Of a DNA stretch of 64,000 bases, positions 7,454 to 58,340 are shown piece after piece. The position numbers and the translations under genes are program-made. How positions within the stretch are numbered: position 1 is the first letter of the stretch; each line of letters starts with the position of its first letter. Source of the stretch: Actinostola sp. cb2023 (lineage: Eukaryota; Cnidaria; Anthozoa; Actiniaria; Actinostolidae); NCBI GenBank assembly GCA_033675265.1, contig JAUJYZ010001308.1:342001-406000 (forward strand), written 5' to 3'. The notes under the pieces were generated by a model. It saw only the letters and a program-made list of their open reading frames with translations, made no database searches and was not told where the DNA came from.

Positions 7454-10400
7454 TTATGCTTTTATTATTGTTATATCAGTCTTTGCTCGGCTATCTTTAG
7501 TGGTTTTTGGCCTGCAGTAGGACGATGGGAAGGTAACTATGGAGGGGGGCCTGGAGTGGGCCTTGTCCTTTCTCTGCCACATGATTAGCCTCGTTTGTGT
7601 GTTTAAAGCGAATAACTGCTGACTATCTTCACTGAAGGCAACTCTACAATCAACCACAACAAAGACAACGTCAGTTCACATTCAGTGTTATTTATTTTGA
7701 TTGATTTTTGTACTCACGAAATGATTGGATATAAGTTTTGTTCTGGCGCTATGTCCCGGATGTGCTGTAGATCCCAGGTGCTCCACAACCTACAAAGATG
7801 TGGGGAACTGGGTTACGAGTAACCATAGTAACAAATGAAAAGTCTGACAACTCCTCAGTAAATTGAATTAAGACATCGAAGACGTCCCTGCATGGACAAC
7901 TAACAATCTGTTAACCTTGTCTGTTGTACCTTATAGCGCCGTTGCTAAGGCCTGTTGCTATGATGTTAACAGACATTCCTGCCTACGTCCCTGCCTAGGC
8001 ATGGACAACTAACAATCTGTTATGTTAACCTTGTCTGCTGTACCTTATAGCGCCGTTGTTAAGGCCTGTTGCTATGATGTTAACAGACATCCCTGCCTAC
8101 GTCCCTGCATGGACAACTAACAATCTGTTATGTTAACCTTGTCTGCTGTACCTTATAGCGCCGTTGCTAAGGCCCGTTGCTATGATGTTAACAGACATCC
8201 CTGCCTACATCCCTGCATGGACAACTAACAATCTGTTATGCCTTGTCTGCTGTACCTTATAGCGCCGTTGCTAAGGCCCGTTGCTATGATGTTAACAGAC
8301 ATCCCTGCCTACGTCCCTGCATGGACAACTAACAATCTGTTATGCCTTGTCTGCTGTACCTTATAGCGCCGTTGCTAAGGCCCGTTGCTATGATGTTAAC
8401 AGACATTCCTTCTGGTGCCCGCGAGAAGTCAATACAGTTTATAGTGTGTTCACATTTGGTGCTTGCCACAGGCCTCCCATTCACAGTCCAAAGGTACAAG
8501 GTGCTGCCTTGGTCATCATGACAACTGTCTTGATCAATTGATTCGACTACGTGACAAAACAGTAAAGTAATCAAGTATAAGTTTAGGCACAACTGCAAGC
8601 ATAAGCGCACATAAGCACAAGGAATAAACAATGTTGAGAGGTCTGTCTTGCGTTGCTGGTGAAAACCAAGAATGTGTACATTACTTACCTTCGTGAGACA
8701 CAGAAACAACATCACCTGACCGTCGACTTACTGCTAACGTTTGGACAGCGGTTTTATGTTCCAGTGTACGAATATAACTCAACCTGACATAAAAACAAAC
8801 CAGTCACAGTTGAACCACTATCCCTCCATAATAATAATAGTTTATCCGCAATTCACTTCACCTATACATTCAAGTGAAAAGACGTTAACCCTATCTAGTT
8901 ATCTCCTGAGTGAATCCATACTGGAAAAAATGCATGTCAACTTATCACCAGCATGAAAACATACCTAGAGAGATCCCAGATGATTGCTGTACTATCCTTA
9001 CTACCGCTGACCAGTACACTGTACTCATGACAAATGTGTAGGCATGTGATTGCTTTGCTGTGACCATAGAGACGAACACGTGATCCAAGTACCTCAATCT
9101 TGCAGTCCTGGCAAAAACAACAGGTTGGTACTAATGTCAATGTTATCTCTGACGTCATGAAAGTTAAGATATGAAAATGGTGACTGATGGCTGGTGATGA
9201 CTGGTGATGATGATGGTGGTGGTGATGATGATGACTGGTGATGGTGATGACTGGTGATGATGATGACTGGTGATGGTGATGACTGGTGATGATGATGACT
9301 GGTGATAGTGATGACTGGTGATAGTGATGACTGGTGATGATGAGTGGTGACTGGTGATGACTGGTGATGGTGATGACTGGTGGTGATGATGACTGGTGAT
9401 GATGATGACTGGTGATGATGATGGTGGTGGTGATGATGTTGACTGGTAGTGATGATGACTGGTGATGATGATGAGGACTGGTGATGATGATGGTGGTGGT
9501 GGTGATGATGATGACTGGTGGTGATGATGACTGGTGATGATGATGATGACTGGTGATGATGACTGGTGATGGTGATGACGATGATGACTGGTGGTGATGA
9601 TGACTGGTGATGACGATGACTGGTGATGACTGGTGATGATGATGACTGGTGATGATGATGACTGGTGATAGTGATGATTGGTGATGACTGGTGATGATGA
9701 TGACTGGTGATAGTGATGACTGGTGATGATGATGACTGGTGATAGTGATGACTGGTGATGATGATGACTGGTGATGGTGATGATGGTGATGATGATGATG
9801 ATGATGACTGGTGATGACTGGTGATGTGATGACTGGTGATGACGATGACTGGTGATGACGATGACTGGTGATGACGATGACTGGTGATGACGATGACTGG
9901 TGATGATGATGACTGGTGATGATGATGACTGGTGATGATGATGACTGGTGGTGATGATGACTGGTGATGATGATGACTGGTGATGATGATGACTGGTGAT
10001 GATGATGACTGGTGATAGTGATGACTGGTGATGACTGGTGATGATGATGACTGGTGATAGTGATGACTGGTGATGATGATGACTGGTGATGATGATGACT
10101 GGTGATGATGATGACTGGTGATAGTGATGGCTGGTGATGGTGATGACTGGTGATGATGATGACTGGTGATGGTGATGACTGGTGATGATGATGACTGGTG
10201 ATGGTGATGATGATGACTGGTGGTGATGACTGGTGATGATGATGACTGGTGATGGTGATGACTGGTGATGATGATGACTGGTGATGGTGATGATGATGAC
10301 TGGTGGTGATGACTGGTGATGATGATGACTGGTGATGGTGATGACTGGTGATGATGATGACTGGTGATGATGATGACTGGTGATGGTGATGATGATGACT

Positions 10401-58340: not shown

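Follow-up and report, generated by a model that had tools for sequence, protein, structure and literature searches.

Minisatellites carrying copies of splice junctions in introns of the LYST gene of the sea anemone Actinostola sp. cb2023

Introduction

Minisatellites spanning exon-intron boundaries, termed mirages, have been described in amphioxus for Adh3, troponin C and the globin genes BflGb6 and BflGb9, with similar imperfect repeats in PGBD5 (PMC3087553, PMC3902484). The available text of the same reports describes regular splicing of such genes and proposes intron gain (PMC3087553, PMC3902484). The arrays treated here share with the amphioxus mirages tandem units that span donor or acceptor boundaries and copies that carry AG/GT, the amphioxus units measuring 10 to about 160 bp. 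Mirages are further characterized by length instability between haplotypes or in somatic cells. Splice site choice has also been summarized in a proximity rule, according to which the sites paired are those nearest to each other across the intron when introns are short, and across the exon when they are long (PMC9225289).

Actinostola sp. cb2023 is a deep-sea hydrothermal-vent anemone (Actiniaria), whose published gene set was, by the available text of the genome paper, built without RNA (PMC10803348). The window analysed in this work is a stretch of 64,000 nucleotides of its genome (assembly GCA_033675265.1, contig JAUJYZ010001308.1, positions 342,001 to 406,000), and positions given below are those of the window. 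An earlier sequence-only reading of the window had claimed that in many introns of LYST, the gene of the lysosomal-trafficking regulator, the minisatellite unit contains the neighbouring splice junction. The LYST arrays belong to the known kind represented by the mirages, and are unusual in their number and in the phylum in which they occur; a search of the openly licensed PMC literature found no report of mirage-like repeats in cnidarians.

Materials and methods

The LYST gene was modelled by spliced alignment to four LYST proteins, those of human, Nematostella (P0001), Stylophora (P0002) and Branchiostoma (P0011). The human query is taken to be human LYST. The four models use common codon and splice scores and are thus not fully independent. 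Authentic splice sites were assigned by homology and open frames, and "authentic" is used below for sites inferred in this way.

Decoy splice sites were sought with each junction 20-mer, allowing at most 4 mismatches and demanding that the GT or AG be kept. Copies of the unit were also counted by an anchor, which finds them without using the core itself. Tandem repeats were located with TRF; arrays with a period of at least 10 and a score of at least 80 were used for the analysis of positions, and those with a period of at least 10 and a score of at least 150 for the coverage counts. An array was regarded as being in contact with a junction if it lay within 5 nt of the junction or across it. 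In the null model, which was constructed for this analysis, one unit was placed uniformly in the collapsed intron. Overlapping arrays were merged, and under this rule the intron 40 arrays entered the null with periods of 12 and 282, their junction-bearing units being 81-94 bp long.

Results

The LYST gene and its surroundings

The coding region of LYST extends over positions 7457..55377 of the minus strand, and the long minus-strand frames of the window match this gene. The 56-exon model encodes 3868 residues with no internal stop. A plus-strand reading of the gene was rejected: the plus-strand open frames are those of NDRG and TPMT, and LYST is on the minus strand. The modelled protein is 57% identical to Nematostella LYST over the aligned residues and 31% identical to the Branchiostoma protein; the Stylophora LYST shows 49% identity to the model and also 49% to Nematostella LYST.

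All four models have the same intron in 48 of the 55 cases. The introns that vary in at least one model are those at the exon 3 end, near 43.8 kb, at the exon 15 start and at the exon 26 start, two around exons 20-22, and one near 22.8 kb. All four models agree on the exon 41 acceptor and on the nine donors that have decoys; the start of exon 26 falls at 30307 in one model and at 30271 in three. Exon 1 and anything upstream of it are uncertain: the homologue-based models disagree upstream of 55377, two of the four add exons upstream of exon 1, and the position near 58340 that the sequence-only reading had given for the 5' end is tentative. Exon numbers in that reading were higher by two than ours, its exons 7, 25, 37, 42, 43, 47, 48, 49, 51 and 56 corresponding to our exons 5, 23, 35, 40, 41, 45, 46, 47, 49 and 54, and its intron 19 to our intron 17.

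Two other genes lie close to or inside LYST, both on the plus strand. One, encoding a thiopurine methyltransferase (Pfam TPMT, E 1.3e-34), occupies 54068-54985 on the strand opposite to LYST, within the long intron that comes first in the model; the other, an NDRG-family gene (Pfam Ndr) at 4242-6202, stands tail to tail with LYST. The Nematostella LYST and TPMT proteins are each recorded on a contig of 17,865,913 bp, thus the linkage of LYST and TPMT is probably old. Outside LYST and outside the plus-strand gene predictions there is a 32-bp x 17 array at 62531-63079.

A BEACH search of the genome matched five contigs, two of which were identified, that of the window (LYST) and contig C1378 (NBEAL1). 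Among the 120 listed of the 2354 matches to the LYST model (candidates of 0.55-1.75 times the model length, some entries having no name), none was named Actinostola, in a protein database that holds another Actinostola protein. We infer that the published Actinostola gene set may hold LYST in pieces.

Arrays and copied junctions

Tandem repeats of any kind were found in 28 of the 55 LYST introns, and 26 arrays in 24 introns passed the thresholds used for the analysis of positions (period at least 10, score at least 80). The arrays and duplications at or near junctions are the following.

46703..47308, minus strand: intron 5 array, 67 bp x 9, with 46 nt of the exon 5 tail and the donor (exon end 47263); 8 decoy donors
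40378..40542, minus strand: intron 16 duplication, two copies of 86 bp across the donor (exon end 40534); 1 decoy donor, below the authentic one in strength
37722..40017, minus strand: intron 17 array, 82 bp x 28, intron start and end fused, from 17 nt after the donor to 3 nt before the acceptor
31226..34831, minus strand: intron 23 arrays, 75 bp x 42 then 59 bp x 9, with the exon 23 donor copied (exon end 34828)
30205..30475, minus strand: exon 26 acceptor duplication, two copies of 131 bp across the acceptor and exon head; 1 decoy acceptor for 30307
23372..24457, minus strand: intron 35 array, 63 bp x 17, with 29 nt of exon tail and the donor (exon end 24429); 16 decoy donors
22546..22696, minus strand: intron 37 array, 14 bp x 11, beginning 4 nt inside the intron (exon end 22701); no junction copy
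21120..22040, minus strand: intron 40, 5' part, units of 81-93 bp across the donor (exon end 22027), running into ATC-rich repeats; 2 decoy donors
17308..21109, minus strand: intron 40, 3' part, 94-bp units across the acceptor and the first 35 nt of exon 41 (start 17342); 38 decoy acceptors
15276..15412, minus strand: intron 45 array, 46 bp x 3, with a short exon tail (exon end 15418); 3 decoy donors
14643..14996, minus strand: intron 46 array, 27 bp x 13 from the exon edge (exon end 14996); 11 decoy donors, none as strong as the authentic one
13313..14497, minus strand: intron 47 array, 41 bp x 29 from the exon edge (exon end 14497); weak donor copies only
11682..12040, minus strand: intron 49 array, about 43 bp x 9, with 10 nt of exon tail and the donor (exon end 12031); 6 decoy donors
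7882..8410, minus strand: intron 54 array, 104 bp x 5, with 51 nt of exon tail and the donor (exon end 8360); 4 decoy donors

In intron 23 there are 25 decoy donors at no more than 4 mismatches, and 40 copies with an intact GT when counted by the anchor.

All eleven places named in the sequence-only reading were found again, ten of them clearly and intron 47 weakly, and most of the content that it ascribed to the units stands. The exon tail is copied together with the donor in introns 5, 35, 40, 49 and 54, and a short tail in introns 45 and 23; the acceptor is copied with 35 nt of exon head at exon 41; and the fusion of intron start and end is seen in intron 17. A unit holding only the intron start, claimed for two introns, is well supported in intron 46 and weak in intron 47, which has two copies at no more than 5 mismatches and none at no more than 4, the array edge being at the junction. 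Two junction copies not on that list, both in two-copy duplications, were detected at exon 16 (donor) and at exon 26 (acceptor, with this start found in one of the four models).

Intron 29 also contains an array (26092-29310), which spans 3.2 kb and consists of 10-bp units resembling CACAGAGGAG, about 320 in number (80 copies of 40 bp). Three minus-strand frames run open through it, and it lies 44 nt from the donor on one side and 21 nt from the acceptor on the other.

Decoy splice sites

The search at no more than 4 mismatches yielded 115 decoys, 76 donors in nine introns and 39 acceptors in two, which makes ten introns in all, one having both kinds. As in mirages, the arrays span the boundary: junction 20-mers are repeated in 10 of the 55 introns, and in the control a second copy within 1.5 kb was found at the same cut for 1 of 300 exon-interior 20-mers. 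With 5 mismatches allowed the number rises to 135 (95 donors and 40 acceptors), a total that includes some chance matches, the control at this cut giving 9 of 114 within 5 kb. The estimate of well over 150 decoys in the sequence-only reading was therefore too high, also when compared with the 121 intact cores counted by the anchor.

Relative to the inferred authentic site, every one of the 76 donor decoys is found downstream and every one of the 39 acceptor decoys upstream, none of them on the exon side. They are not poor sites: in score, 58 of the 76 donor decoys and all 39 acceptor decoys (97 of 115) equal or exceed the authentic site, and 47 donor decoys are identical to it over its nine bases. 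Use of a decoy would almost always damage the coding sequence. Among the donor decoys 69 add a stop, 3 lose the frame and 4, all of them in intron 35, leave the frame intact and free of stops; each of the 39 acceptor decoys adds a stop.

It is conceivable that the decoys are used, and that the resulting longer or broken transcripts act in regulation through nonsense-mediated decay or encode repeat-derived peptides. In the human IFI6 gene two downstream repeat units serve as splice donors (PMC4526556, citing Turri 1995), and the four frame-keeping decoys of intron 35 would suit such a role. We nevertheless consider this quite unlikely for LYST, where 111 of the 115 decoys would introduce a stop or break the frame, and the amphioxus mirages, as far as the available reports go, do not disturb regular splicing (PMC3087553, PMC3902484).

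The splice signals within the units, the second feature of mirages, are well preserved: the GT or AG core is kept in 121 of the 125 unit copies found by the anchor. The four broken cores compare with 4.2 expected from the divergence of the anchor, and two of them, in intron 45, are probably due to an alignment shift, as the 20-mer search finds 3 copies with GT there (without intron 45 the count is 2 of 123). With 4 cores broken and 4.2 expected, the idea that the decoys have been weakened by selection was rejected. The decoys look neutral, neither purged nor clearly maintained.

Array load and intron length

Minisatellites cover 24,438 of the 44,832 bp between 7457 and 52288, and 742 of the 19,168 bp that make up the remainder of the window. 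In 20 stretches evenly placed on three contigs of the same genome they cover 25,701 of 200,000 bp and are present in 15 of the 20. The Actinostola genome is thus rich in minisatellites, and LYST is extreme within this 20-stretch sample.

It must be asked whether the copies could have been made or multiplied in the hybrid PacBio/Illumina assembly (DBG2OLC, Racon, Pilon). The genome paper describes corrected long reads with short-read polishing and an assembly of 424.3 Mb, where a survey had put the genome at about 487 Mb (PMC10803348), so that copy numbers may be wrong; the analysis covered this one assembly, in which heterozygosity was reduced (PMC10803348). The copies, however, carry variants and come in many unit lengths, minisatellites are common elsewhere in the assembly, as the 20 stretches show, and the coding frames are open up to the arrays in a model that has no internal stops. 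An assembly artefact as the source of the arrays is, in our opinion, very improbable.

The sequence-only reading had noted that the other introns of the gene are compact. This is borne out by the 31 array-free introns, 20 of which measure 62-114 bp. The median intron length is 102 bp for array-free introns; array introns have a median of 728 bp as present and of 164 bp when the arrays are collapsed to one unit. Existing introns look, to us, to have been enlarged by the arrays. Under intron gain by AGGT tandem duplication, the background cited in the sequence-only reading, a new intron flanked by the duplicated exon would be expected where relatives lack one. The collapsed array introns still differ in length from the array-free ones (Mann-Whitney P=0.016), therefore the two groups may have begun from different lengths.

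Decoys are absent from all 29 introns shorter than 247 nt and present in 10 of the 26 introns of at least 247 nt, the decoy-bearing introns being 247 to 4684 nt long; this comparison is confounded, because the arrays themselves lengthen the introns.

Position of the arrays relative to the junctions

Part of the junction contact is a matter of geometry, because units of 12-131 bp often include an end when they lie in compact introns. Relative to the collapsed-intron null, 11 of the 26 LYST arrays contact a donor where 4.7 are expected (P=0.0026), and 3 of the 26 contact an acceptor, against the same expectation of 4.7. If the present array is dropped at random in the present intron, only 2.0 donor contacts are expected among 26, as compared with the 11 seen; the collapsed-intron null is the fairer one because each array would have begun as a single unit while the intron was still short. 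The gap on the 5' side is smaller than that on the 3' side in 19 of the 26 arrays (P=0.029). Geometry therefore explains part of the contact, a donor-side excess that it does not explain remains, and an acceptor excess is absent. The earlier statement that the arrays abut the real junctions rather than lying at random in the intron holds in this restricted form: it is right for the donor side, where the excess over geometry is about 2.3-fold, and fails for the acceptor side.

The donor excess could mean that duplication is targeted to junctions, with AG|GT proto-splice sequences or a transcribed exon/intron edge acting as hot spots of tandem duplication, as in models of intron gain. The number of donor contacts and the smaller 5' gaps speak for this. 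Against it stand the acceptors, which show no excess, and the array edges near the LYST donors, which are spread from -51 to +45 and are not stacked on the junction.

Two comparisons beyond LYST also count against targeting. The first is the neurobeachin-like gene NBEAL1 of the same genome, identical to the deposited protein P0205 wherever the two align (1714 of 1714 residues). From its 40-exon model we removed the first 8 exons, which had poor support, leaving 31 introns; about 50 kb of contig C1378 were covered, and the gene may be incomplete. Its array-free introns have a median of 385 bp. Among 9 NBEAL1 arrays there were 0 donor contacts (1.0 expected) and 1 acceptor contact (1.1 expected), and the 5' gap was smaller in 4 of the 9, that is, without a bias to either side. 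The second is the 200-kb sample of 20 x 10 kb, in which 67 arrays and 39 predicted junctions made 0 contacts, with a mean of 3.3 after rotation. This is weak evidence of low power: the codon-only gene predictor used for the sample recovers 32 of the 55 donors and 33 of the 55 acceptors of LYST, and the observed contacts are lowered, while the rotated ones are not, because the predictor penalises exons inside arrays. Weighing these results, we regard targeting of junctions as unlikely. In view of NBEAL1 and the sample, the claim of junction copying is a statement about LYST and is not extended to the whole genome.

Two details of NBEAL1 may be recorded here. In one intron (L029:5237-5401) an array of 64-bp units begins 20 nt past the donor and reaches the acceptor (gap -1), an arrangement that resembles LYST intron 17. 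An exon of P0205 at 13463-13352 overlaps a 57-bp array at 13419-13632 (L030:3352-3632; 13352-13632 of the joined stretch of C1378) and is absent from two models based on coral proteins; the repeats may have led to its being predicted in error.

The donor bias could instead be the work of selection, if arrays that harmed the branch site, the polypyrimidine tract or the region before the AG were lost, and growth on the 5' side was left. The LYST acceptors have a T-rich tract, and their contacts are fewer than those of the donors (3 and 11). Growth on the acceptor side has, on the other hand, been tolerated at exon 41, with its 38 copied acceptors, and at exon 26, with one, and the absence of a 5' bias in NBEAL1 does not fit well. 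We see selection of this kind as a real possibility that falls just short of being probable. It is compatible with the preferred reading, growth of the arrays in place from compact introns, and could act in addition to it.

Discussion

What we have observed are the arrays and their content, the numbers and strengths of the decoys, and their effects on the coding sequence. Beyond these observations, from which we infer the mechanism of duplication, the use of the outermost site and the role of exon definition, the LYST arrays are probably mirage-type minisatellites that have grown in place from compact introns, the outermost site being used through exon definition.

In this mechanism a short stretch of an intron of about 60-200 bp would have been duplicated in tandem, by replication slippage or unequal exchange, and then expanded. 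Splice sites would be taken into the units because unit and intron are often similar in size; in several introns it would thus have come to include the 5' splice site with the exon tail, and twice the 3' splice site with the exon head. That the arrays arose at LYST follows from the units containing the gene's own coding exon ends. Since almost every decoy would add a stop or shift the frame, the spliceosome would have to take the outermost, original site. Exon definition is the likely basis of this choice, as the authentic donor would be the one nearest to the upstream acceptor, and the authentic acceptor the one nearest to the downstream donor, across the exon. Growth of the array lengthens the intron and may so favour exon definition itself. 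By the proximity rule as summarized in the available source (PMC9225289), exon definition predicts the outermost site, which is the site that the coding sequence requires: the site nearest across the exon is demanded in 9 of 9 donor and 2 of 2 acceptor arrays, the sites in use being those deduced from the coding sequence. Several results count against the preferred reading: the lack of the donor pattern in NBEAL1, the lack of visible selection against decoys, the donor-side excess beyond geometry, the remaining length difference between collapsed and array-free introns, and the exon 26 acceptor, which is present in one of the four models.

The switch from intron to exon definition is placed at about 250 nt. 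It is tempting to speculate that the arrays rescue themselves: the first duplication of a splice site in a short, intron-defined intron would be dangerous, but once the intron had grown past about 250 nt, exon definition would let the original site win and further growth would be free. The split of decoys at 247 nt (0 of 29 and 10 of 26) fits such a switch, but it is only a hint, and we find the idea doubtful, though worth keeping as a lead. If it were true, LYST would amount to a set of splice-site competition experiments made by nature, in which decoys are tolerated only in introns that exceed a threshold length.

Whatever the history of the arrays, LYST offers ten introns of 247 to 4684 nt in which 1 to 38 near-identical sites, donors as well as acceptors, compete at known distances. 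The series could let the role of position alone, whether outermost, first transcribed or nearest across the exon, be judged among sites of equal strength. The arrays suggest how compact introns become long, and they carry the warning that gene prediction may fail at such array-rich loci.

It is useful to compare LYST with the systems described previously, as far as the available texts of the respective papers allow. The mirages of the lancelets are hereby extended to a cnidarian, and here ten introns of one gene are concerned, whereas in amphioxus it is one or a few boundaries per gene; the copies of one junction reach 38 in LYST, as against 6 and 3 units in the two haplotypes of BflGb6. The minisatellite of human IFI6 (6-16) resembles the LYST arrays in having units that carry splice donors (PMC4526556), but the donors of its repeat units are used, while use of a LYST decoy is predicted almost always to destroy the frame. 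Variable internal tandem repeats in human segmental duplications likewise show that minisatellite expansion alters gene structure at exon-intron boundaries; there the outcome was new introns or longer exons in recent paralogues (PMC2812944), whereas the LYST introns seem to have been enlarged with their exon ends kept. The proximity rule agrees with LYST in that long introns prefer the sites closest across the exon, as the LYST coding sequence demands; the study compares a major with an alternative site (PMC9225289), and in LYST up to 40 near-identical candidate sites, read from the sequence alone, stand side by side.
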